Shown here: piece after piece, positions 7,500 through 23,069 of the stretch | Numbering within the stretch: the first letter of the stretch is position 1 | How the letters are laid out: each line of letters begins with the position of its first letter | Assembly (NCBI GenBank): GCA_029261295.1 | Contig: JAJDBP010000035.1 | Coordinates: 49,582 to 113,581 of the forward strand | Reading direction: 5' to 3' | Length of the DNA stretch: 64,000 nucleotides | Source: Nitrospirales bacterium | Lineage (GTDB): Bacteria; Nitrospirota; Nitrospiria; Nitrospirales; UBA8639 | The notes under the pieces: generated by a model | The model's input: only the letters and a program-made list of their open reading frames with translations | What the model was told of the DNA's origin: nothing | Database searches by the model: none | Translations under genes and position numbers: made by a program

Positions 7500-9962
7500 T
7501 TATTGTGTTACCTGCAAATTCTTGGGTGGAGCTGGTGGAAATTGGTCACTTGAAACTTGAGGATCCGCTATCTTTGCGCGAGAAATTATGAGGTCATCAT
7601 ACCAAGTAACCCCTGGAAGATGATTCTGCTCCACCCCTTTTGAGGTATGGTAGGGAAGCAGCCAAATTTTTCCATATTTCACATTGGCATCTGCGTAACA
7701 TGCCGTATCCCCGGGAGGACAATTCACCAAGTCATATTGTGTCTTTTCCATCACCTTAACTGATGGTTGTCCCTCAGACCCTACCCACAATTCCACCGTA
7801 CTATCTTGATGATAATTCTGGTCATTTCTATACCACGTTCCTATATGAACATGAACTTGAAATGTCATCCATTCGTTGGGCTTATACCCTACACACGGTC
7901 CATAAGGGGGAACAAACCGTTTATTCCACGGTTGCTCCGTATTAGACCACTTTAAGGTCCAATTGCATCCGGTAACATCTCCAGACTGCAAAGCCCAATC
8001 ACTCCCAATTGGTTGTAGGGGAATCTCCAAGCCTTGATACTGGCCATCTTTATGCCCACAGCTATGGTACATCTGAGGAAATCCTTGTTGACTAGAATTT
8101 TGCACAACGAGTTCCATAGACGTACAGGAACTTGTTATTTTCCCAGGGGAATCGCCCTCTCCAATAATGACCTGCTTCCAGCCACCAGCAATATTTTGAG
8201 CAGATGCTGGATCCATATAGTAAAGCGTATCAATAAATTCTGGCGAAAAACGTTGGCGCCATTGAATGTAAAAATCTTCTCCTTCTCCAAATTTCACTGA
8301 GTTATCATCCATAAAATTCAGCCAAAATAACCCGGAGGTATTTGCTGGACTATTTGAAGGAATATCAAATTTTAATGAGCCAGCTCCAGAAGACTTGACT
8401 ACAGTATCAATCGTACCAAGCTTCACCCCATTGGTGAAATTTGGTGCCCACACATGTGGATCGGTTTCAGATTGAGAATCAAAGCTGAAACAGCGCACAA
8501 CATTAAGATTACTGCATCGAGCGAGAAAATCAGATCCAGTTGTACTACCACCTTGGACTTCAATTGTGGCTTGAGAAGAAAGAGGCGACTTATTCCCTGC
8601 CGCATCAAAAGCTAAAACAGAAAATTGATAAAAACCAGGTCCAGGGATCGTACTATCAAAAAATGAATTCCCACCTGTTGAATTAATTTCAACACCATTT
8701 CGGAAAATAGTATATCCAGCGACCAATCGATCATCTGTGGAAGGTTGCCACTGAAGATAAATTTCTGATGGAGAAGTCGCATTCCCCTGCACAACAGAAG
8801 GAACCGTCGGCGGGGCCGTATCTGGGATTAAAGGAGTTCCAGAACCTTGCTTATGTTTATAGAGAAACACTTTCGTTTGATCAAAGTAATATTTCAAATA
8901 CATAACCACACCATAATTGCTGATCGGAGCACCAATCACATCGAACGCCCCAGGACCAAAGCTTGTGAGTAGGGGTTGGGAGTCTAATAACGTCCAAGTA
9001 TCATTAGCTACATCATATTCATAGAAACCATTGTTAGAAGCATCAGATTGAAGTACAAGAAAGTTGCCACTGGGGTCTGGGGTAAAAACTGTTGAACCCA
9101 CTCTGATGTTGAAAGGCGCATTATTCAATTGCACAATAGATCCGTTAGCATCAACTTTATATAATGACCTTTTATCGTTGGATCCCCCACCAAAAATCAC
9201 GACTTTATGCGTGGAGCTATATCCAGAGACATGACTATGCGGGCCAAGATCTAAAGTGGTGGATAAGGTACTCCATTGATTCGTGGAGGGGTTGTAAAAG
9301 AAAAGGGAAGCCGGAGAGAATCGTGCATCAGCAAACAACAACCCTCCCATTTCAGGAAAATATTGCACCATTCCAGCAACCTGAAATCCACCTTGTGGAG
9401 GAATTGGCAAATTCTCCCAGGTGTTTCCCACCACATTATATTTGAAGATTTTCCCAAAATTATATTGTCGATAATAATAGCTTCCGGACGCAGGATCCAT
9501 TGTACTATGATCATAGCCATGAGAAATACAGGCTGTGGAGGAAGTTTGTGGATCCTCTGCCATACAGGATTCTGGAAGGGGGCCCTCACGCCACGTATTG
9601 GTTATCGCGCTATATATCACAAATTTTCCTGGATTATAATGGGGCGAACCGACAAAAAAGAATTGTTCTGTATTAGGATCCCAAGCAGCCTTATGAGACC
9701 ACTGGGTCACAGCCTTTCCTGCTAAAACTGTTTCAAAAAAATGCCCTTGATTCATCCCCAAAGTTGGCAATTCTGCCCAAGTGCCAGGAGCCATTTGATT
9801 TGCTAAATCCCCTAAAACGGTAGCACTAGAGATTTGCGGTGATAGGGACATGACAAAAATAATGACCATAACTTTTACCCAAGGACGCCGACATTTCCTT
9901 GTAGGAACAAAAGACTGCATATTCCCTATTTTTTGATAATAATTAAATAAATTACCTTCCAT
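7500..9962 (-). CDS. Secreted Kelch-like / FN3 / jelly-roll multidomain protein
   Basis: 820 residues from the ATG at 9962, chosen because AAGGAGG (9968-9974) lies 5 bases upstream; a TTG five codons further out overlaps that site. A long N-region is followed by a hydrophobic core (VMVIIFVMSLSP) and an SSA cleavage site near residue 47. Residues ~60-380 have repeated blades with Trp and Gly-Gly (VVIFGGGSNDKRSLYK), like Kelch or galactose-oxidase propellers. Residues ~390-478 are an FN3 domain (LQWQPSTDD, FSVLAFDAAGNKSP). The last ~330 residues form a Cys-rich domain ending in VTWYDDLIISRAKI, which resembles lectin/lyase jelly-rolls. Binding or cleavage of the EPS is likely, but no catalytic residues can be named. 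A c-di-GMP riboswitch lies in its leader. Confidence 0.8.
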   Translation of the reverse strand: MEGNLFNYYQKIGNMQSFVPTRKCRRPWVKVMVIIFVMSLSPQISSATVLGDLANQMAPGTWAELPTLGMNQGHFFETVLAGKAVTQWSHKAAWDPNTEQFFFVGSPHYNPGKFVIYSAITNTWREGPLPESCMAEDPQTSSTACISHGYDHSTMDPASGSYYYRQYNFGKIFKYNVVGNTWENLPIPPQGGFQVAGMVQYFPEMGGLLFADARFSPASLFFYNPSTNQWSTLSTTLDLGPHSHVSGYSSTHKVVIFGGGSNDKRSLYKVDANGSIVQLNNAPFNIRVGSTVFTPDPSGNFLVLQSDASNNGFYEYDVANDTWTLLDSQPLLTSFGPGAFDVIGAPISNYGVVMYLKYYFDQTKVFLYKHKQGSGTPLIPDTAPPTVPSVVQGNATSPSEIYLQWQPSTDDRLVAGYTIFRNGVEINSTGGNSFFDSTIPGPGFYQFSVLAFDAAGNKSPLSSQATIEVQGGSTTGSDFLARCSNLNVVRCFSFDSQSETDPHVWAPNFTNGVKLGTIDTVVKSSGAGSLKFDIPSNSPANTSGLFWLNFMDDNSVKFGEGEDFYIQWRQRFSPEFIDTLYYMDPASAQNIAGGWKQVIIGEGDSPGKITSSCTSMELVVQNSSQQGFPQMYHSCGHKDGQYQGLEIPLQPIGSDWALQSGDVTGCNWTLKWSNTEQPWNKRFVPPYGPCVGYKPNEWMTFQVHVHIGTWYRNDQNYHQDSTVELWVGSEGQPSVKVMEKTQYDLVNCPPGDTACYADANVKYGKIWLLPYHTSKGVEQNHLPGVTWYDDLIISRAKIADPQVSSDQFPPAPPKNLQVTQ

Positions 9963-9979
9963 CTTATCCTCCTTCAAAG

Positions 9980-9995
9980 GGATTTCCTCAAATCC
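9980..9995 (-). promoter_or_regulatory. Small hairpin just upstream of the ribosome binding site
   Basis: GGATTT (read on the minus strand) pairs with AAATCC around a four-base GAGG loop, 5 bases before the AAGGAGG of the Kelch gene. It could influence translation initiation as part of the leader of the riboswitch-controlled transcript, but a 6-base AT-rich stem may be chance. Confidence 0.35.
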
Positions 9996-10007
9996 TGTAT
10001 GTTAGAT

Positions 10008-10289
10008 TTAAAATAATATCAGATCCACTTTACTTCTAATTAAATAGAATAGCTTCAATAAGCAAAGTGCTAAGCCTCTTCTTTTAAAAGAGAAAGAATT
10101 CTTAAAATACGTTGTAAATTGGGGGAGATAAAAAGAAAGCAACGACACTAACCGGGGGGAAGGCTTACATAATTTCAGTATATCAAAAGAAATACCTGGT
10201 GCAAATGCAAATCCTGTCTTTGGGCAATCAGAAAAGAACAGAATAGGAATGAAACGTTCCACTGCCTCTACATTTGTTAGGTATTTCAC
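10008..10289 (-). CDS. Possible small ORF directly after the riboswitch
   Basis: A 93-codon frame from a GTG at 10287-10289, preceded by AAAGGA 7 bases upstream, begins 13 bases after the riboswitch aptamer and ends 45 bases before the ATG of the Kelch gene. The product is hydrophobic and basic (LVSLLSFYLPQF, LCLLKLFYLIRSKVD) and matches no family I know. Its position makes it a candidate direct target or leader of the riboswitch. Its composition looks unlike a normal soluble protein, so it may be untranslated leader RNA. Confidence 0.25.
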   Translation of the reverse strand: MKYLTNVEAVERFIPILFFSDCPKTGFAFAPGISFDILKLCKPSPRLVSLLSFYLPQFTTYFKNSFSFKRRGLALCLLKLFYLIRSKVDLILF

Positions 10290-10301
10290 GAACAAATCCT
10301 T

Positions 10302-10402
10302 TCCCTGGCAACCAGGCTATCAGAACATTTTTGGTAGAAATGTCTGACCCTTGGCTTTGCGTCCCTACCTCACGGTAGGTTTGCTATTAACAAGAATGGA
10401 CC
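10302..10402 (-). promoter_or_regulatory. Cyclic-di-GMP-I (GEMM-I) riboswitch aptamer
   Basis: On the minus strand the RNA reads AGCAAACC, a TACC-GTGA-GGTA hairpin with a GNRA loop, then GGGACGCAAAGCC, a second hairpin (TCAGACATTT pairing with AAATGTTCTGA) and TAGCCTGGTTGCC. These are the GEMM-I conserved elements in the right order and spacing, with the first hairpin the same length as in the Vibrio Vc2 aptamer. It lies about 340 bases upstream of the Kelch gene and about 190 bases after the stop of the asparagine synthetase gene. The 3' part also forms CCTGG-TTG-CCAGG, a possible alternative hairpin just before an AAAGGA site, which could act as expression platform. Whether ligand turns expression on or off is not clear. 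Confidence 0.9.
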
Positions 10403-10592: not shown

Positions 10593-12557
10593 TTATTTAA
10601 GGATAACCGCGTCAATGTCCCTTTCAAAATACGCCCGCAACCAAACCTCCGTGTTGAGCAATGGCCAAATTTGATGGGGCTCCCCCTTCCCCGATAGAAA
10701 ATTTATCACTCGAGCCCGAAGCTTGCCTGGATCAACAAACTGAGCTAGCTTTGGCTCTCCACTGGCCAAAAGGCCCTCAACAACTGAACGCAGTGGTCCG
10801 AGCAACCATGAAGAACTTGGACCAGAAAAAGGTATTTTTTGGGGGTCTCCACTAATAATAGATGGCAAGGTGTCAGTCATAGCTTTTCGAAGAACTATTT
10901 TCGTAAGACCATTTTGAATCTTTAAATGATTTGGAAGACCAAATCCATACTCAATAAGTCGATAATCCATAAAAGGTAGACGCGCTTCTAATGAATATGC
11001 CATAGAAATGCGGTCTTCAAATTGCAGCCAGGCAGGAAGCATTTTATGGAAAAAATCTAACCGTAAATGTTGATCAAGTCCAGAATGGCATTTGCCTAAA
11101 TTTGGGCGTAAGCTTGCATGCTTTTCAAGAAGGTCCCCATGAATTAAATTTTCTAATGACCATGTATCGCCTTTCCCTAAAAGATGTTTTATGGATCGAA
11201 GAATTCTGTATCGTAGCGTACTAAAAGCCAATTCCCAATTCAAACCATGCATTTGTTTCATGGCATGAAGTTCTCCCCAAGCCCTTGTCCATTGCAAGCG
11301 AACGAGGGCATCTATCACAACTTCAGGACAATAGTCATAGGGATATCCAGCATAAATCTCGTCCGAACCATGCCCATTCAAGAGCACTTTGACCTGCTCA
11401 GCTTGCGCGCGTCGCATGAGAAGGGCATGAACCAAAGGGACAGAATTATACCAAGGCATTTCCATTGAATAGGCAACACCTTTAAGTAAAAATTGAACAT
11501 CCAATTCTTCTAAGGGGAAAACGGTATGTTTCGTCAGAGGTAATTGCTGACAAAGGGCATCCACTTTGACCGTTTCATCTATTTTTTCACCTGGGAAGCC
11601 GGCAGTAAAAGAATGTAAGGATTCACCTGTAACAGCCAGAGTTCCCGAATCGGAAGACATAAAACCCGCAACAATGGAAATAACACTTGTTGAATCAAGT
11701 CCGCCGCTCAGCATTGTGCCAACTTTTACATCAGAGCGAAGACGAAGATGAACAGAATCATTTAAGAGAAATTTAAGTTGAGTCGCAGCTTCCTCCAAAT
11801 TATTGGTAATCGGCCATGGCTCAAGTGGCAACGTCCAATAACGTGTACTTTGAAAAGAGCCATCAGGGAAAAAAGTCAAACAGGTTCCCGGATCAACAGC
11901 CCAGATATCTTCAAAAAAACTGGCCCCATTGGTCGGGGCGGTCCGCCGGGCTAAATAGCCAACAACCGAATCAACATCGGGACGACGAACAACCAAGGGA
12001 CATTGGAGGATGGCCTTAATTTCCGATGCAAAAAGCACTGCACCGTTTATTCTATGGTAATAAAGCGGTTTGATTCCGAATCGATCTCGACAAGCAACCA
12101 ACTTACGCTCTTGATTATCCCAAATCAAAAGAGCCCACATACCATTAAAGCGTGAAAAACATTCTTGCCCCCATTGCATGAAAGCCGCCAAGACAACTTC
12201 CGTATCTGTGCCGGTTCTAAAATTATGACCAAGGCTTTTCAACTGTTCTTTCAGCTCAAGATAGTTAAAGATTTCACCATTATAGATCATCCAAAATCGA
12301 CCATCTGGGGAGACGAAAGGTTGTCGTCCAGCATCTGACAAATCAAGGATGCTCAATCGTCGGTGCCCCATTCCAACGCCTTTTTTACCTTTTGGCATTA
12401 AGGGGTTATCTCGCCATTCCAAACTATTCCCAGGGCCAACAAAACAAAAACCAAAGTTATCTGGGCCACGATGCTCCAGCGCATGGGTCATTTTCGCAAG
12501 GAGTTTCGGATCTAAGACTTGTCCTGAGTAATTGTAAATTGCCGCGATACCACACAT
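10593..12557 (-). CDS. asnB: Asparagine synthetase (glutamine-hydrolysing)
   Basis: 654 residues with both halves intact. The N-terminal class II glutaminase starts MCGIAAIYN, so Cys2 is exposed after Met removal, and has HRGPD, RRLSILDL, NGEIFNY and the DTEV loop for glutamine binding. The synthetase half has the PP-loop LSGGLDSTS near residue 284. The reaction uses ATP, aspartate and glutamine to make asparagine, or amidates a related carboxylate in a pathway-specific homologue. Four other homologues in the window suggest specialised roles. The stop lies at the edge of the ~630-base region that holds the riboswitch. No near neighbour shares an overlap, so it may have its own promoter in the 328-base gap upstream. 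Confidence 0.9.
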   Translation of the reverse strand: MCGIAAIYNYSGQVLDPKLLAKMTHALEHRGPDNFGFCFVGPGNSLEWRDNPLMPKGKKGVGMGHRRLSILDLSDAGRQPFVSPDGRFWMIYNGEIFNYLELKEQLKSLGHNFRTGTDTEVVLAAFMQWGQECFSRFNGMWALLIWDNQERKLVACRDRFGIKPLYYHRINGAVLFASEIKAILQCPLVVRRPDVDSVVGYLARRTAPTNGASFFEDIWAVDPGTCLTFFPDGSFQSTRYWTLPLEPWPITNNLEEAATQLKFLLNDSVHLRLRSDVKVGTMLSGGLDSTSVISIVAGFMSSDSGTLAVTGESLHSFTAGFPGEKIDETVKVDALCQQLPLTKHTVFPLEELDVQFLLKGVAYSMEMPWYNSVPLVHALLMRRAQAEQVKVLLNGHGSDEIYAGYPYDYCPEVVIDALVRLQWTRAWGELHAMKQMHGLNWELAFSTLRYRILRSIKHLLGKGDTWSLENLIHGDLLEKHASLRPNLGKCHSGLDQHLRLDFFHKMLPAWLQFEDRISMAYSLEARLPFMDYRLIEYGFGLPNHLKIQNGLTKIVLRKAMTDTLPSIISGDPQKIPFSGPSSSWLLGPLRSVVEGLLASGEPKLAQFVDPGKLRARVINFLSGKGEPHQIWPLLNTEVWLRAYFERDIDAVILK

Positions 12558-13940: not shown

Positions 13941-16900
13941 TTAGATATTAATAAATGTAATCGTTTTTTTTAAATTTTCACGTGCAGGCTTCAGCCGTGA
14001 TTCTAAGAAATTTCCAAAATCTTCAGTATAGTCCACCAACCAAGACTTATGGTTCCCCGAAAGTTGATGTACACTTACTCCTTTCGTTGAAAAATCCCCC
14101 CACCCCATAGCTAAATCGACATCCCATTCATGCCTATCCTCAATCGTTCGGGCTAGCACAATTTCCCCTTCAAATTTGCTTGTTGGCGCATAATTATCCA
14201 TGGCCCGAAAAATGCGGTATTCAATATATTCATGCTTCACAATTTCTATGAAGGTTCGAATATTCAAATCTGACATCCGCGCACGACTCAATAAAGCCTT
14301 CAGTTGGTTCAAAACTCTAAATGGGGCTGAACGACCAAAAACAGCTCCATTTGCATAATGTGGCGCTGGCGTAATCCATACAATGAGTTTAGCCACAGTT
14401 TCACCACGTCGCTGGAGCTCTGTCGCTATAGCAAATGCAATTAAGGCTCCTTCACATCCCCCTCCTAAGAAATAGGGCCCTTTGGGCTGTAATTTTTGGA
14501 TAGCCGCAACAAATTCTCCTGTCAAAGCCTCAACTGACCTGTATGCCTTTAACCCTTGAGCAACACGTCCGCTCTGAAGGGCATAGGCATCCAAACGATA
14601 AAAAGGTTGCTCAAGATGAATTCGTTTGGCCACATCTACGTAACGTGGGTGACTTCCAACCGAAAAAAAAGGTTCCATGGAACCAGTTGAGCGAATGGCT
14701 GAAATAGCTTGAGGGAACTTTGAGCTAGTGGCTTCAGATTCAGAGACAAGGTCTTCAATGGTTCGTCCCTGAAAAAGAGCAATAACCGGAATACGCCGAC
14801 CTAAGACCTTTTCCATTTTTGAAACGAGTCGCAACGCAAGAAGGGAATGTCCACCAAGATCAAAGAAATTATCCCGAATTCCTACTTTTGGAATACCAAG
14901 CACCTCAGCCCAAATATCTACGAGTTCTTTTTGGGCGACCGTTTGAGGAGCAAGATAACCCTCACCATAGTCAGACCTTATTTCAATTGGAGGCGGAAGG
15001 GCTTTTCTATTTACTTTTCCATTAGGGGTAAGAGGCAGTGAATCTAGTACAACAAATAGAGATGGCACCATATAGTCCGGAAGTGATAGCTTTAAATACT
15101 CTCGCAACTCCCTAATATTTAGTGAGTCCTCCTGAATGGATGCCATAAGATAATACGCCACAAGGCGTTTCCCTCCTGAACTATCCGTATCCGCAATTAC
15201 CACCGATTGACGAACCCCTGGATGCGTTTCTAGCACAGATTCTATTTCTCCCAACTCAATACGAAATCCTCGGATTTTAACCTGATGATCAAGTCGTCCT
15301 AATAATTCAATATCCCCATTAACCTGATATCGTCCTAAATCTCCCGTATGGTACAAAAGAACATCATCTTTAAAAGTATGGGAAACAAATTTTTCTTTCG
15401 TTAGTTTCTCACGGTTAAGATATCCCTTAGCCAAACCTACCCCCCCAATACACAGTTCTCCTGGAACACCAATAGGAACCAGTTGATAAAACGCATCAAG
15501 CAGGAATATTTTTGTATTGGCTATTGGTCGTCCAATGCAGATCGAACCATCTTCCTTGGAGAAAATTTGCTTAACTGTAGACCAGACTGTCGTCTCTGTA
15601 GGTCCATACACATTCCAAAGTTCCCCACATCGTTCAAGCAGTCCCTCGGAAAGTTCACGTGGCAGGGATTCTCCACCACACAAAAGTTTGATGTTAGGAT
15701 CTCCACTCCAATTTTCATCAAGCAACATTCGCCAAGTGGCAGGTGTAGCCTGCATAATAGTTGCACCACACGATTGAATCTTTTGACTAAGAAGTCGACC
15801 ATCCAAAGCCTCAGTTCGAGAGGCAATAACAACACAGGCCCCACAAATAAGGGGCAAATATAATTCAAGGCCAGCGATGTCAAAAGAAAGTGTTGTTATT
15901 GCTAACAACCGATCTGAAGACTGAATTCCAGGCTGATTTTTCATAGCACAAAGAAAATTCACCAGAGCCCGTTGTTGAATCATGACACCTTTAGGTTGGC
16001 CCGTAGAACCAGAGGTGTAAATCACATAAGCCATACTATCCGGTGTTGTTGAAGAGGAAAAATCTGATGATGAACTTTCAGCAATGGTCCCATTATCAAC
16101 ATCCATTAAAATGACTTTGGGAGTGTCCGATGGGAGTCTATCGAGCAAGGTTGATTCGGTAAGTAAAAATTTCACTTCCGCATCTTTGACCATATATGCC
16201 AGCCGATCAGAAGGAAACGCAGGATCCAGCGGCACATAAAAACCCCCAGCCTTCATCGTTCCAAGAAGAGCTACAAGCATATGAAACGAGCGTTCAATAA
16301 ATATACCGACCGGTGTCTGCGGGACAACTCCAATGGCTTGAAGATGTCGTGCGAATGAATTCGAACAGGCTTCTAATTGGCTATAACTGTACGTGATGCC
16401 TTCGAACTCAACGGCAATAGCTTCAGGGGTTCTTGTGGCTTGTTCTGTAATAAGCTGAGGGACGGTTGCCTGATTTGGGTAGTAAAAATCTGTATTATTC
16501 CAAGTCCCCAATAATTTCGTTTTCTCTTCCTCAGGCAATAAGTTCAACTTCCAAACAGACGTTGATGGACCGTCCACAATACTTTGTAATAAAATACGGA
16601 AGTGAATCATTAAATTTTCAATCGTGGGTTCCTCAAAAATATCAGTACTGTATTCAACTTTAACCAGATAACCATCGGGATTGGGATGAATATAAAAGCT
16701 GAGGTCAAACATGGCGGTATCCATTCCCACAAAATCTCGATCAATCTCAATTGATCCCATTGAGCTATCCAAAAATTCTTGATTTTGAAGCACCAATAAA
16801 ATTTGAAAAAATGGGGAGTGCGTAAGATCTCGATCAGGTTGAAGTTCTTCTATAAGTTTTTCAAAAGGAACATTTTGATGAGAGAATGCTCCCAGTGCAA

Positions 16901-17936
16901 CTTCACGAACGCGTCCAAGAAATTCAATGAACGATGGTTGGCCAGAAAGGTCATTCCGCAAGACAATTGTGTTAATAAAAACCCCTATTAGATTTTCAAG
17001 GTCTTTTCGTTTTCTTCCTGCTATTGGGCAACCTATAGAAATGTCAGATTGACCTGAATAGCGCGCCATTAGAATGTTAAGAGCCGCTAGAAGAACCATA
17101 AAAATAGTTGAACCCTGCCCCTTGGCGAGCTCTTCCAATGCGTGAATAAGCTCCGGAGGCAAAACGGTTCGCAATCGAGCACCACGGAAGCTTTTTCTTA
17201 CAGGCCTAGGGCGATCGGTGGGGAGGTCGATGGTTGAAGTAGCCCCCGACAGGACATTCCGCCAATACGTGACCTCTTCTTCAAAGGTAGATAGTTGATC
17301 TTGTTGCCAAATCGAAAAATCGGCAAACTGAAAAGGTAGTTCTGCTACTTGTTCAGGTTTGCCAGTATAAAAAAGGATAAGCTCGCGCTGGAACACGCTT
17401 AGAGACCAACCATCAGAAATGATGTGGTGCATAACCACTAACAGCCAATGTTCTTCTTCGTTCAGCTTTAGCAAAGAAAATCGTACCAGAGGCCCTGCTG
17501 AAAGATCGAAAGGCTCACGGGAAATTTCTCTAGCATGGCTTTCAGCATGGCCATTTGAAACATCTATGACCTTAAGCTCCACAGGCTGAGCTGGTTGAAT
17601 AAGTTGAGCAGGCTCACCTTCCTGCTCAATAAATATTGTGCGCAGTGCTTCGTGTCTGGAAACGATAGAAGAGAGTGAGACCTGAAGCTTTTCGAGTTCA
17701 AGATTACCCTTGAACTTTAGTATCAAGGGAATGTTATAGACACTATTTCCTGGATCTAAACGGTCAAGAAACCACAAACGCTGTTGGGAGGAAGAGAGCA
17801 CCGATGGGTTCTTGCTAGTGCGCTTGGGGATTTGAGCCGGAACGATTTCAGATTGACGATGAGATCGCAGTTTCTCGAGGAGGATTTTTCGTTTTTCCGG
17901 TGAAAGGTTCGCGATACGCTGGGAAATTTCATCCAT
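13941..17936 (-). CDS. Non-ribosomal peptide synthetase, C-A-T-TE
   Basis: 1331 residues. A condensation domain (about 45-470) has the active motif HHIISDG at 170-176. The adenylation domain (about 485-990) has YTSGSTGQPKG and ends with NGKVNRKAL carrying the A10 Lys. The carrier protein has DLGGHSLLAL with the phosphopantetheine Ser near residue 1028. The last ~250 residues are an alpha/beta-hydrolase thioesterase, but the nucleophile elbow reads LGGGCEGA, with Cys (near 1160) in place of Ser; a His is present in GNHKSWL. By alignment to GrsA by eye the specificity code is D-I-L-Q-L-G-V-V-W-K, close to a glycine code. It takes the chain from the upstream NRPS (27 bases away) and releases it. 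The product is unknown. Confidence 0.93.
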   Translation of the reverse strand: MDEISQRIANLSPEKRKILLEKLRSHRQSEIVPAQIPKRTSKNPSVLSSSQQRLWFLDRLDPGNSVYNIPLILKFKGNLELEKLQVSLSSIVSRHEALRTIFIEQEGEPAQLIQPAQPVELKVIDVSNGHAESHAREISREPFDLSAGPLVRFSLLKLNEEEHWLLVVMHHIISDGWSLSVFQRELILFYTGKPEQVAELPFQFADFSIWQQDQLSTFEEEVTYWRNVLSGATSTIDLPTDRPRPVRKSFRGARLRTVLPPELIHALEELAKGQGSTIFMVLLAALNILMARYSGQSDISIGCPIAGRKRKDLENLIGVFINTIVLRNDLSGQPSFIEFLGRVREVALGAFSHQNVPFEKLIEELQPDRDLTHSPFFQILLVLQNQEFLDSSMGSIEIDRDFVGMDTAMFDLSFYIHPNPDGYLVKVEYSTDIFEEPTIENLMIHFRILLQSIVDGPSTSVWKLNLLPEEEKTKLLGTWNNTDFYYPNQATVPQLITEQATRTPEAIAVEFEGITYSYSQLEACSNSFARHLQAIGVVPQTPVGIFIERSFHMLVALLGTMKAGGFYVPLDPAFPSDRLAYMVKDAEVKFLLTESTLLDRLPSDTPKVILMDVDNGTIAESSSSDFSSSTTPDSMAYVIYTSGSTGQPKGVMIQQRALVNFLCAMKNQPGIQSSDRLLAITTLSFDIAGLELYLPLICGACVVIASRTEALDGRLLSQKIQSCGATIMQATPATWRMLLDENWSGDPNIKLLCGGESLPRELSEGLLERCGELWNVYGPTETTVWSTVKQIFSKEDGSICIGRPIANTKIFLLDAFYQLVPIGVPGELCIGGVGLAKGYLNREKLTKEKFVSHTFKDDVLLYHTGDLGRYQVNGDIELLGRLDHQVKIRGFRIELGEIESVLETHPGVRQSVVIADTDSSGGKRLVAYYLMASIQEDSLNIRELREYLKLSLPDYMVPSLFVVLDSLPLTPNGKVNRKALPPPIEIRSDYGEGYLAPQTVAQKELVDIWAEVLGIPKVGIRDNFFDLGGHSLLALRLVSKMEKVLGRRIPVIALFQGRTIEDLVSESEATSSKFPQAISAIRSTGSMEPFFSVGSHPRYVDVAKRIHLEQPFYRLDAYALQSGRVAQGLKAYRSVEALTGEFVAAIQKLQPKGPYFLGGGCEGALIAFAIATELQRRGETVAKLIVWITPAPHYANGAVFGRSAPFRVLNQLKALLSRARMSDLNIRTFIEIVKHEYIEYRIFRAMDNYAPTSKFEGEIVLARTIEDRHEWDVDLAMGWGDFSTKGVSVHQLSGNHKSWLVDYTEDFGNFLESRLKPARENLKKTITFINI

Positions 17937-17963
17937 AGTAATCCCGTCACTTCAACCTAAAGA

Positions 17964-20900
17964 CTAATTGCTTTCTAATTCTTCTAACATTCGGCTTAGC
18001 TCAAGTTCATCAGTTTGAGAAATTTGAGATTTAATTATTTCTTGGCCAAATTCCACAATCGTAGGGTTTTGGAACAAGGACTGAACAGACATTTGCACTC
18101 CCATTTCCTCTTGGATTCGTGTTAGCACTCTAATCACCATTAGCGAATGTCCACCAAGATCGAAAAAATTTTCTTGAATGCCAACTCTCTCCAAACCTAG
18201 AACGTCAGCCCAAATTGAAGCAAGAATATCCTGGGTCGGATTTTCAGGTGGAATATAGGGTCTTTCGACATCAGACGTCACTTCACCCGGAGCCGGAAGG
18301 GCGTTCCGATCAATTTTCCCATTGGGTGTATAAGGGAATTCCTGAACTTCCATAAAAACAGAAGGAATCATATAATCCGGCAATGATTGCTTTAAAAGGG
18401 TTCTGAGATTGCCTAATTTAGTTTCACATGTCTCAGTCACATAATAGGCGACCAAACGCCCCTCACCAGATACATCTTCCCGAATAATGGCTACTGCTTG
18501 TCGAATACCTTCAATTTGAGTCAACAAGGTCTCAATTTCACCAAGTTCAATGCGGAAGCCTCTCAATTTTATCTGATGATCTAGACGACCTAGGCATTCC
18601 AGGGTCCCATCAGACCGATAGCGTGCAAGGTCACCTGTCCTATAAATGGTTAATTTCCCATTCCCAACAACAGGGTTAATGACAAATTTTTCTGCAGTAA
18701 GCTCAGGACGATTGAGATAGCCTAAGGCGACCCCTGCTCCCCCAATACATAGTTCCCCTCTTACGCCAACAGGAACAGGGTTATCATACCTATCCAATAC
18801 ATAGACCTGAGTATTCTGAATCGGTCGGCCAATGGGCACAGTTCCTTCTCTAGATTCTAATTGATGGATTGTTGACCAAATAGTCGTTTCAGTTGGACCA
18901 TACATATTCCAGACGGCTTTAACGCACGGAAATAAACGTTCCGCCAATGGGCTGGGAAAAGCCTCGCCACCGCAAAGAACAGTGAGTTGCGAATTACCTT
19001 TCCAACCAGAGTCGAGAAGCATCTGCCAGGTAGTTGGTGTAGCCTGCATAATTGTCGCCCCAGTCACTTGAAGCTGTTTTGCCAATTCCTCTCCATTGGT
19101 CGCAACGGCCCGACTACTGACAATGACACAAGCTCCGGTAATAAGAGGCAAATATATCTCTAATCCAGCAATATCGAAGGAAAGAGTAGTCACCGCAAAC
19201 AATCGATCTCCTGATTCTATGCCAGGACGTTGTTGCATACTTTGCAAAAAATTCACCACAGCACGATGAGGGATTTGAACCCCTTTCGGTCGACCCGTTG
19301 ATCCCGATGTATAAATAACATACGCTAGATTCTCGGAAGTCATTTTGGGAATTTCTGTCAACTCCTCAGCCTCTGATTTAATGGCATCCCTATCGGCATC
19401 AAGACGAACAATAGTTTTGCCATCTACCGGCAATTGTTGTTCTAATGACTTCTCTGTTACCAAAATTGAAATGTTGGCATCCTCCAACATGAAGGCCTGA
19501 CGAACTGCGGGAAACGATGGATCAATGGGGACATAGGCCCCTCCGGCTTTAAGAATTCCTAACAGCCCAACAATCATTTCTGCTGACCGTTCCACACAAA
19601 TACCCACCAGAACATTGGGGCCAACCCCACGCCCCATTAAAAAATTAGCAAGCTGATTTCCACGTCGATTGAGTTCCCCATAGGTCATACTCTGGGACTC
19701 AAACACAATGGCGGTCGCATTTGGAGTTTTTGTGGCCTGGGACTCAATGAGTTGGTGCAAACACATGGCCGAAGAGCCATTCGACTTTGTCGCATTCCAT
19801 TCCTCAAGCAATTTCCGACTTTCAGCTTCGGGAACCATGGCTAGATCCGAAATATGTGTATCAGGATTTGCCACAAGCGATGCCAATAGAGACTTAAAAT
19901 GTTCAATCATTCTGGCAATCGTAGACGTTTCGAATAAATCTGTGTTGTGCTCCCAAATCATAGTGAGCCCATCGTTTTCCGATCCTTGGGGCAAACCCAG
20001 ATACTGTGAGGAATGGGGGATACCTATGACCACTAAGTCAAATTTGGCGGACCCATTGCTCAACACCGGCGTAAGCTTCACTTCAAGTCCAGGCATCTTT
20101 TCTTCGGGCATAGGCTCGTCATGAAAACTAAAGACATGATGGAAAAGGGGGTTCATACTGATATCCCGTTTGGGATGGACTGCCTCAACCACACGATCAA
20201 AAGGAACATCTTGATAGATGGCTCCTTCTAACACGACATCCCTCACATGCTTCATCAGCTGCCGCCCTGTTGGATTCGTATCCAAGGCCGCACGAATCAC
20301 CACGTTATTCAAAATCATGCCTATGAGCCCTTCGGACTCAACCGCACGCCGGTTGGCAAAAAAGGTGCCGACCGCAACGTCTGTCTCACCTGTATACCGA
20401 TGGAGCATGGCAATGAACACTGCCAGCATCGTCATAAAAAGAGTACTTCCCTCCTGACGACTTAATGCTCGCAATTGATTACATAATTCAACAGGTATTT
20501 CAGGACGCAAAGATGTGCCCCGGAATGTTTGCTGAGACGGTCGTGCTCCTTTTATCGGCAACTCCAGAACAGGTGGAAGAGTTTGAAATTTCTTCTTCCA
20601 ATAGGCTAATTGACGATCAGACACCTCGCCCTGCATCCATTGATGTTGCCAAGTGGCAAACTCGGCAAATTGTACGGGAAGCTCTTGAAGCGGAGAAGCT
20701 TGGCCAACGGAGTATGCCCGATAGAGAGCCACAAGTTCTATGAGGAACACATTAAATGCCCATCCATCATGTACCAAATGATGCTCCATATGAATCAACA
20801 CATTTTTTTCATCGCTATACCGAAGTAATGTCCAACAGACCAATGGCAATTTTGCTAAATTAAACCGACGTTGAAAATCCTTGTCACACCAGCCTTTAGC

Positions 20901-23069
20901 AGCGCTTTCACGTTCTTCCTCCGGTTTGTCGCTGAGGTCCACGATAGGAAGAGAGTATGGAGTGTGGGGATGAATAATTTGAACAGGCCGACCATCAACA
21001 GTGGGAAAAGACGTTCTGTAACTCTCATGCCGTCGCAATATTTCATCTAGAGAACGTTCGAGAGCCTTGACATCAAGCCTTCCTCGAAAATCAATACTGG
21101 ATGCAAAGTTATACGCTAAATTTTCGGGATTGAATTGATGAAGAAACCAGACTCGCTCTTGCGAAAAGGAAAGAGGAATGTGTGTGCCACGTGTCACGTC
21201 CATAATAGACAGTTCGTCCGTCACATCTTGCCGAGGATCTGCAGCTAAAATAACCGGAAGAATCTCGGCGACAGTAGGAAACTCAAACATAGAACGGAGA
21301 AACATATCGACGTTAAACGCTTCACGAATTCGAGTCGCCACTTGGGCGACTTTAAGCGAATCGCCGCCTAGTTCAAAAAAGTTGTCATGGACTCCAACCT
21401 TTTCGACTCGAAGTACTTCGGCCCAAATTTTTGCAAGCTTCGACTCATCTTCCGTGCGAGGGGCAAGATAATCCACCGCTAACACGGGACGTTGAAAATC
21501 TGGCGCAGGTAGGGCTTTACGATCAACCTTCCCATTAGGAGTTAGGGGAAAGGTCGTTAATGAAACATATAATCCAGGAATCATATAATCTGGAAGTTTG
21601 GCAGCCAAAACTTCACGTAACTCTCGACTCGATAGAGATTGAGAATTAGTAGGAACAAAATAGGCCACCAATCGCTTTTCACCAGGAACATCTTCACGAG
21701 CCATTACCACGGCTTGATTGACCCCTGCATGTTGATCTAAAACCGCTTCAATTTCACCTAACTCAATACGAAACCCTCTAACTTTTACCTGAAAATCCAT
21801 CCGACCCATATGTTCAAGTGAACCGTCTGGAAGACATTTAGCCAGATCCCCTGTGCGGTATAATCGCTTCCCGGTATTGGAGTCTAAGGGATGTTGAATA
21901 AATCGTTCTTTAGTAAGATCTGGCCGTTTAAAATACCCTCGAGCCAAACCTTCTCCACCGATAAACAATTCACCTGGAGTGCCTACGGAAACAGGTTGAT
22001 GATTTTCGTCGAGAACCTGAATTTCGGTATTGGCTATCGGATTTCCTATAGGAACGGATCCAGAACCACTCGCGACTTGGTGGACCGTCGACCAAATGGT
22101 CGTTTCCGTAGGCCCATACATATTCCAAAGCTCCTGACACCTTGGCAATAAGCGTTCAGCCAGTTCACGGGTGAGAGTTTCACCCCCACAAAAAATTCGT
22201 AATGCAGGATTCCCCTTCCAATCGGCTTCTAATAACAACCGCCATGTCGCAGGTGTGGCTTGCATAACCGTTATTCCGAATGACTCTATGGCTTTCGCCA
22301 GTTGGCCTCCATCAGATGCGACATTCCTTGAGGCAATAATAACTTGCCCTCCTACAACCAGAGGGAGATACAGCTCCAACCCAGCAATATCAAACGATAG
22401 GGTTGTCACCGCCAATAAACGATCGTGAGGCTCAAGTCCAGGCTTTTCCTTCATACTCTTTAAAAAATTGACTACAGCACGATGAGGAATTTCAACTCCT
22501 TTAGGGCGACCTGTCGAGCCTGACGTGTAGATGATATAAGCGAGATCTTCTGCCTGCGCGAGCGGTGAAAGCGGGGAATTGGTCTCGTTGGCCATTAATG
22601 GCCAATCAGTATCCAAACACAAAATTTTTGCTGTGGATTCAGGCAATCCACTTTTCAAGGTACTCTGAGTCAGGACAAACTTTGAGTCTGAATCAGTCAA
22701 CATATAGGCAATGCGATCGGCTGGATAGGCCGGGTCAAGTGGGATATAGGCACCCCCTGCTTTGAGAATTCCCAGCAACCCAACCATCATTTCTAAAGAA
22801 CGTTCGACGCAAAGACCTACTAATTCTCCAGGTTTTACTCCAAGTGTACGTAAATGATTGGCAAGTTGATTTGAGCGAGACTCTAATTCTTGATATGTGA
22901 GTTTTTGATCTTCGAAAACCACGGCAATTTCATCAAGAACATTGGCAGCAGTTTCCGCAATTAGTTGGTGTACAGTCTCCGTGGAAATCGGCGCAAGTTC
23001 ACCTGTTTTCATATGACCAACTTCACGTTGGCTGTCAGATTCTTTTGATCGTCTGCTACCATGATTCAT
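17964..23069 (-). CDS. Non-ribosomal peptide synthetase, A-T-C-A-T
   Basis: 1701 residues: A1 (about 30-545), carrier 1 with ELGGDSLKV (Ser near 570), condensation domain with HHLVHDG (near 761), A2 (about 1090-1600) and carrier 2 with DLGGHSLMV (Ser near 1640). Lack of an N-terminal condensation domain marks it as the initiating enzyme. Both A domains contain YTSGSTGRPKG and an A10 Lys. Codes read by eye against GrsA are D-I-L-Q-F-G-M-I-W-K and D-I-L-Q-L-G-M-I-W-K, both near a glycine code. AAGGAGG lies 8 bases before the ATG. With the next gene it forms a three-module line, predicted to make a tripeptide. No epimerisation, methylation or MbtH protein and no phosphopantetheinyl transferase is present in the window. 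Confidence 0.94.
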   Translation of the reverse strand: MNHGSRRSKESDSQREVGHMKTGELAPISTETVHQLIAETAANVLDEIAVVFEDQKLTYQELESRSNQLANHLRTLGVKPGELVGLCVERSLEMMVGLLGILKAGGAYIPLDPAYPADRIAYMLTDSDSKFVLTQSTLKSGLPESTAKILCLDTDWPLMANETNSPLSPLAQAEDLAYIIYTSGSTGRPKGVEIPHRAVVNFLKSMKEKPGLEPHDRLLAVTTLSFDIAGLELYLPLVVGGQVIIASRNVASDGGQLAKAIESFGITVMQATPATWRLLLEADWKGNPALRIFCGGETLTRELAERLLPRCQELWNMYGPTETTIWSTVHQVASGSGSVPIGNPIANTEIQVLDENHQPVSVGTPGELFIGGEGLARGYFKRPDLTKERFIQHPLDSNTGKRLYRTGDLAKCLPDGSLEHMGRMDFQVKVRGFRIELGEIEAVLDQHAGVNQAVVMAREDVPGEKRLVAYFVPTNSQSLSSRELREVLAAKLPDYMIPGLYVSLTTFPLTPNGKVDRKALPAPDFQRPVLAVDYLAPRTEDESKLAKIWAEVLRVEKVGVHDNFFELGGDSLKVAQVATRIREAFNVDMFLRSMFEFPTVAEILPVILAADPRQDVTDELSIMDVTRGTHIPLSFSQERVWFLHQFNPENLAYNFASSIDFRGRLDVKALERSLDEILRRHESYRTSFPTVDGRPVQIIHPHTPYSLPIVDLSDKPEEERESAAKGWCDKDFQRRFNLAKLPLVCWTLLRYSDEKNVLIHMEHHLVHDGWAFNVFLIELVALYRAYSVGQASPLQELPVQFAEFATWQHQWMQGEVSDRQLAYWKKKFQTLPPVLELPIKGARPSQQTFRGTSLRPEIPVELCNQLRALSRQEGSTLFMTMLAVFIAMLHRYTGETDVAVGTFFANRRAVESEGLIGMILNNVVIRAALDTNPTGRQLMKHVRDVVLEGAIYQDVPFDRVVEAVHPKRDISMNPLFHHVFSFHDEPMPEEKMPGLEVKLTPVLSNGSAKFDLVVIGIPHSSQYLGLPQGSENDGLTMIWEHNTDLFETSTIARMIEHFKSLLASLVANPDTHISDLAMVPEAESRKLLEEWNATKSNGSSAMCLHQLIESQATKTPNATAIVFESQSMTYGELNRRGNQLANFLMGRGVGPNVLVGICVERSAEMIVGLLGILKAGGAYVPIDPSFPAVRQAFMLEDANISILVTEKSLEQQLPVDGKTIVRLDADRDAIKSEAEELTEIPKMTSENLAYVIYTSGSTGRPKGVQIPHRAVVNFLQSMQQRPGIESGDRLFAVTTLSFDIAGLEIYLPLITGACVIVSSRAVATNGEELAKQLQVTGATIMQATPTTWQMLLDSGWKGNSQLTVLCGGEAFPSPLAERLFPCVKAVWNMYGPTETTIWSTIHQLESREGTVPIGRPIQNTQVYVLDRYDNPVPVGVRGELCIGGAGVALGYLNRPELTAEKFVINPVVGNGKLTIYRTGDLARYRSDGTLECLGRLDHQIKLRGFRIELGEIETLLTQIEGIRQAVAIIREDVSGEGRLVAYYVTETCETKLGNLRTLLKQSLPDYMIPSVFMEVQEFPYTPNGKIDRNALPAPGEVTSDVERPYIPPENPTQDILASIWADVLGLERVGIQENFFDLGGHSLMVIRVLTRIQEEMGVQMSVQSLFQNPTIVEFGQEIIKSQISQTDELELSRMLEELESN

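Follow-up and report, generated by a model that had tools for sequence, protein, structure and literature searches.

A GEMM-I riboswitch aptamer with an adenine at pocket position 20 ahead of a Kelch/FN3 gene in a Nitrospirales bacterium

Adenine at position 20 of the ligand pocket (A20) is often taken to indicate that a riboswitch senses cGAMP. Which ligand is sensed, and which gene is controlled, when A20 is found together with a lower P2 helix of the c-di-GMP type in genomes without a recognised cGAMP synthase? Such an aptamer is encoded in a 64,000-nucleotide stretch of DNA from a Nitrospirales bacterium (the whole stretch is called the window below), upstream of a putative gene for a protein with Kelch and FN3 domains. 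The evidence points to a c-di-GMP-I (GEMM-I) riboswitch with A20 that likely senses c-di-GMP and likely controls the Kelch/FN3 gene; its discrimination against 3',3'-cGAMP is predicted to be weaker.

The aptamer and its surroundings

A complete GEMM-I aptamer (c-di-GMP-I clan) was located by Infernal on the minus strand at 10394-10303. In a genome-wide search it matched RF01051 (c-di-GMP-I) with 68.3 bits against a gathering cut-off of 35 (E 4.5e-13 for the genome), and with cmscan the same positions matched RF03167 (c-di-GMP-I-GGC) with 63.1 bits against a cut-off of 59 (E 1.6e-12 for the window). Seven RF01051 matches in the genome, this one included, are over the cut-off; the two further matches reach only 14.7 and 14 bits, so a chance origin of the window match is unlikely. 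The element is a true GEMM-I riboswitch aptamer. The class had been assigned in a sequence-only reading of this DNA, whose quoted sequence elements are all present here on the minus strand, and the covariance-model search proposed there returned scores above the thresholds of both families.

From the covariance-model alignment and the sequence, the P1 helix is formed by 10396-10391 and 10307-10302, P2 with its GTGA loop by 10384-10359 and P3 by about 10356-10310, all on the minus strand. The lower part of P2 consists of G21-C46 and C22-G45, and two of the six P1 pairs are G-U. By alignment, the C at 10308 is kept; we take it to be position 92 of the Vc2 riboswitch, which pairs with the second base of the ligand. 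Directly before GCAAACC, at 10385, comes what is presumably Vc2 position 20, which contacts one ligand base and bears on selectivity. It is an A in the window and a G in the genome's six other aptamers, a difference that the sequence-only reading had overlooked. The A at Vc2 position 47 (10358, minus strand, from the RF03167 match alignment) is kept, as it is in 134 of 135 family aptamers. A47 is described as stacking between both ligand bases and as conserved across all class I members, the G at position 20 being less conserved (PMC9049102). G20 was therefore taken as usual for RF01051 and not as a defining feature.

The putative target begins at an ATG at 9962, 341 bases past the aptamer end, and is preceded by AAGGAGG at 9974-9968; a Kelch/FN3 gene had indeed been placed some 340 bases downstream in the earlier reading. 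The gene (7500..9962, minus strand) encodes 820 amino acids with a signal-peptide-like N-terminus (judged by eye), a Kelch beta-propeller at residues about 52-350 (8913..9809), an FN3 domain at residues 379-473 (8544..8828; sequence match to PDB 8pn5 and 1k85) and a C-terminal jelly roll resembling polyuronate lyases at residues about 475-802 (7557..8540), whose fold is that of PL14/PL20-type polyuronate lyases. Four close orthologs of the protein (P0002-P0005) are 64-73% identical to it. Export of the protein is predicted, as is binding or cleavage of a uronic-acid polysaccharide of the matrix made by the exosortase-type locus. The aptamer would then tie a predicted matrix-cutting protein to a c-di-GMP signal.

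That the surroundings form an exosortase-type EPS locus, as had been proposed, is borne out by a PEP-CTERM protein and by marker genes over their cut-offs: the exosortase-A-associated acyl-CoA ligase TIGR03098 (33559..35118, minus strand; 629.7 bits against 592.35), the XrtA/PEP-CTERM amidotransferase TIGR03108 (53387..55294, minus strand; 825.8 against 816.9), PrsT (352.5 against 312.2) and likewise TIGR03088, TIGR03019 and TIGR03097. A scan of a subset of the window's ORFs did not find the exosortase gene itself. An asparagine-synthase-like gene lies upstream of the aptamer on the same strand (10593..12557), and two nonribosomal peptide synthetase genes, with C-A-T-TE and A-T-C-A-T modules, lie inside the locus at 13941-23069.

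The association with FN3 and Kelch genes extends across the family, in which GEMM-I is present in 32 of 48 genomes. With a profile that started from the FN3 domain of the window and was refined in rounds on the very set it was applied to, and which may therefore drift, an FN3-like domain was found in the first ORF after the aptamer for 45 of 135 family aptamers (for 5 of which the DNA examined lacks a 100-codon ORF), compared to 0 of 184 control ORFs, these being stop-to-stop stretches of at least 100 codons in the six frames of 37 GGDEF loci, not all of them genes. When six of the proteins were checked with Pfam fn3, four were over the cut-off, one was just below it and in one the domain was absent. 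Relatives of the Kelch region are encoded by the second ORF after an aptamer, 1.8-2.4 kb downstream, in G021, G022, G023 and G025. Other Kelch relatives in the family have no aptamer match on the contig (G036:C36, G023:C12, G023:C4 and G023:C6) or nearby (G021:C2:460627). For those in another family (L331-L335) none was found within about 1.5 kb; the same scan also missed the known aptamers of L172, L174, L175 and L177, which lie some 2 kb upstream, beyond the end of the stretches scanned. No paper on the FN3 link of GEMM-I aptamers was found in a literature search. The family-wide link of FN3, Kelch and lyase-like proteins to GEMM-I would put matrix proteins under direct cyclic-dinucleotide control at the RNA level.

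The six other GEMM-I aptamers of the genome are at G000:C35:39930-41261, C35:64397-64482, C22:109901-109991, C33:32491-32567 and C2:467858-467939. To judge by eye, they lie ahead of Tad-pilus-like genes, of genes for a subtilisin-like protease, a sigma factor and an FN3 protein, and of a gene whose product has a HELGHNIGWHH motif like that of zinc proteases.

Position 20 and the choice of ligand

A pocket change of the A20 kind is described as common in variants that sense c-AMP-GMP (cGAMP), and a natural aptamer of Desulfobacca acetoxidans with such a change is reported to bind cGAMP markedly better while still binding c-di-GMP, with an affinity that is perhaps slightly weaker (PMC9481103). 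Single changes in lower P2 are also reported to alter both affinity and selectivity (PMC9262584). The selectivity of the window aptamer is probably relaxed. The c-di-GMP ligand of the sequence-only reading thus stands as likely but not settled, since the pocket base A20 went with better cGAMP binding in that one tested natural aptamer.

Position 20 was read in 135 of the 137 family GEMM-I matches and is G in 119, A in 12 and C in 4; one A20 and one C20 case are degenerate aptamers. Three genera of the family have A20 aptamers, and an exact A20 pattern is found in 7 of the 235 genomes of the order. Furthermore, the base differs between aptamers that precede the same kind of gene. Ahead of a 224-aa FN3 protein it is G in G022:C62 and A in G024:C268, and ahead of a 133-135-aa FN3 protein it is G in, for example, G035, G038 and G047 and A in G029 and G030; ahead of response-regulator-like targets (assigned by eye) it may be G, A or C (L046, L047, L049, L052, G021:C2:3685272 and G023:C25:9023). 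Such variation is more suggestive of tuning than of a complete switch to another ligand. These aptamers also provide a clean natural set for establishing the extent to which position 20 by itself determines the ligand.

The opposite view, that this is a 3',3'-cGAMP riboswitch acting like the GEMM-Ib riboswitches of Geobacter and served by a cyclase of the lineage that is not yet recognised, appears unlikely. It was our first reading, from A20 alone. To its credit are the 12 A20 aptamers among the 135, the better cGAMP binding of a natural A20 aptamer relative to its G20 relatives (PMC9481103), and the combination of A20 with AAUA at the J1/2 end; in the solved Geobacter riboswitch, this AAUA is described as supplying the contacts A11, A12, U13 and A14 (PMC7288161). 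The reading was weakened by the lower P2 and by the cyclases, and the G20 or C20 carried by aptamers of sister species ahead of the same kind of gene also speaks against it.

The lower P2 of the window is of the c-di-GMP type. Named A20 aptamers were collected with a pattern requiring AATA and allowing several lower P2 sequences, which gave at least 118 stretches containing 138 aptamers, assigned to taxon groups by eye. Among the matches listed, 104 of 108 Geobacter-type deltaproteobacterial A20 aptamers have C21-G46/U22-G45, the other four being three with G21-C46/C22-G45 and one with A21-C46, and G21-C46/C22-G45, the pairs of the window, is seen in all 30 aptamers from Firmicutes and other groups. 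CTAAAC at lower P2 was found in 0 of the 135 family aptamers. With G21-C46/C22-G45, the window therefore holds an A20 aptamer without the GEMM-Ib lower P2.

The Hypr GGDEF enzymes that make cGAMP are described as having Ser in place of the canonical Asp (PMC6456294, PMC7288161). All seven GGDEF matches of the genome itself have Asp (domain search; L016 was read by eye). Eight A20-bearing relatives have 53 GGDEF matches, and 50 loci covering 52 of these were examined; 44 of the 50 were readable (two by eye; 6 unreadable) and 44 of 44 have Asp. In the positive control, Geobacter sp. AOG1, itself an A20 carrier, 14 loci were readable from 21 GGDEF matches, and Ser was seen in one (L367) and Asp in the rest, two of the loci being halves of one gene. 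For the Firmicutes A20 genomes (Geosporobacter ferrireducens and Litchfieldia), 30 loci were examined out of 42 matches; 22 of the 30 could be read, giving 19 Asp, 3 Asn and no Ser. The SMODS cyclase domain was found in 0 of 9 genomes, compared to 4 of 14 control genomes with matches. With only Asp in the GGDEF domains read and no SMODS domain, a source of cGAMP was not found in this genome or its eight relatives, though an unrecognised one may exist.

Taken together, the c-di-GMP-type lower P2, the retained A47 and C92, the Asp GGDEF domains, the lack of SMODS matches and the variation of position 20 among same-target aptamers favour c-di-GMP, which would be the ligand in the cell. A bolder idea, that the selectivity base has switched back and forth in the family and that the A20 aptamer is a true dual sensor of c-di-GMP and cGAMP in bacteria without a recognised Hypr GGDEF or SMODS cyclase, is decidedly doubtful; if true, an unknown source of cGAMP would control a secreted matrix lyase.

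The leader and the switching step

The leader from the aptamer to the start codon is 340 nt (9963..10302, minus strand) and is longer than most; in 107 of the 130 family aptamers with an ORF, the ORF is closer. Between 9850 and 10700 the only terminator-like site is on the opposite strand, and a terminator read-out was rejected on that ground. A masked Kelch ribosome site, by predicted pairing with 10134-10119, was also dropped: forcing the aptamer fold did not change the predicted access to the site, ribosome-sized masks did not open it, and shuffling the leader gave a site at least as closed in 249 of 300 cases. The idea that the leader is the remnant of a first FN3 gene was set aside too, as no protein similarity was found, the one match being of 13 residues at E 1.

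In the folding models, P2 is predicted to form at all 19 transcript lengths tried, with a probability of 0.75-0.93, while P1 has a probability of 0.00-0.45 over the same lengths and hardly forms at all once the leader is complete. With P1 weak and P2 stable in these models, ligand-stabilised P1 is the likely switching step. Ligand binding would stabilise P1, which in the models otherwise loses out to pairs formed with leader sequence further downstream, and this stabilisation would change leader folding and the expression of the Kelch/FN3 gene. The earlier claim that the aptamer controls this gene is supported by adjacency and by the association of GEMM-I aptamers with FN3 and Kelch genes across the family, but no expression platform was found.

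That missing platform, the long leader, and a P1 with two G-U pairs that the folding models leave open in the complete leader would also be expected if the aptamer were real but its pocket had been decaying since A20 arose, so that switching had been lost from the leader and the Kelch gene were expressed constitutively. Against such decay, the helices and the remaining pocket bases are preserved in a match of 68.3 bits and A20 recurs in three genera; we consider it improbable. It is most improbable that the aptamer first controls a possible 95-codon leader ORF (10008..10295, minus strand) and reaches the Kelch gene indirectly, by coupling: this unproven ORF begins a few bases after P1, its SD-like GGGAAAGGA overlaps the P1 3' strand and so long an ORF arises in only 5 of 4000 shuffles, but a homology search found no homolog, its codon-position GC is flat (0.35/0.34/0.32 against 0.49/0.44/0.35 for the Kelch gene), and the ribosome-sized masks leave the Kelch ribosome site closed in the model.

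Comparison with known riboswitches

A c-di-GMP riboswitch controlling the Kelch/FN3 gene remains the preferred reading, and the aptamer can be set beside four known systems. The first is RF03167, whose cut-off it passes, yet the window has A at position 47 where that model conserves G (GCAAA against the consensus GCGAA). RF03167 was rejected as a ligand label because of this A, shared by 134 of the 135 family aptamers, and judging from the alignment the match is probably a scoring overlap. For six of the seven aptamers of the genome (L001-L005 and L007), cmscan ranks RF03167 above RF01051 though G47 is absent; GGC-variant names in annotations may mislead, as RF03167 is preferred for aptamers without G47.

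The GEMM-Ib cGAMP riboswitches of Geobacter (pilM, pgcA) share A20 and the AAUA at the J1/2 end with the window aptamer, which differs from them in lacking the swapped lower P2 (C21-G46/U22-G45) and in belonging to a genome in which none of the seven GGDEF domains found is of the Hypr kind. With the c-di-GMP-I riboswitches of RF01051 (GEMM-I, Vc2 type) it shares P1, P2 and P3 with a GNRA loop, A47, C92, G21-C46 and C22-G45, and differs in having A20 where the consensus is G, and a 340-nt leader without a recognisable platform. The cluster 3 aptamer of Desulfobacca acetoxidans is described as making a logic gate with a cobalamin riboswitch and its binding was measured, whereas the window aptamer is known from its sequence; in both, a natural pocket change is found in an otherwise c-di-GMP-I aptamer (PMC9481103).
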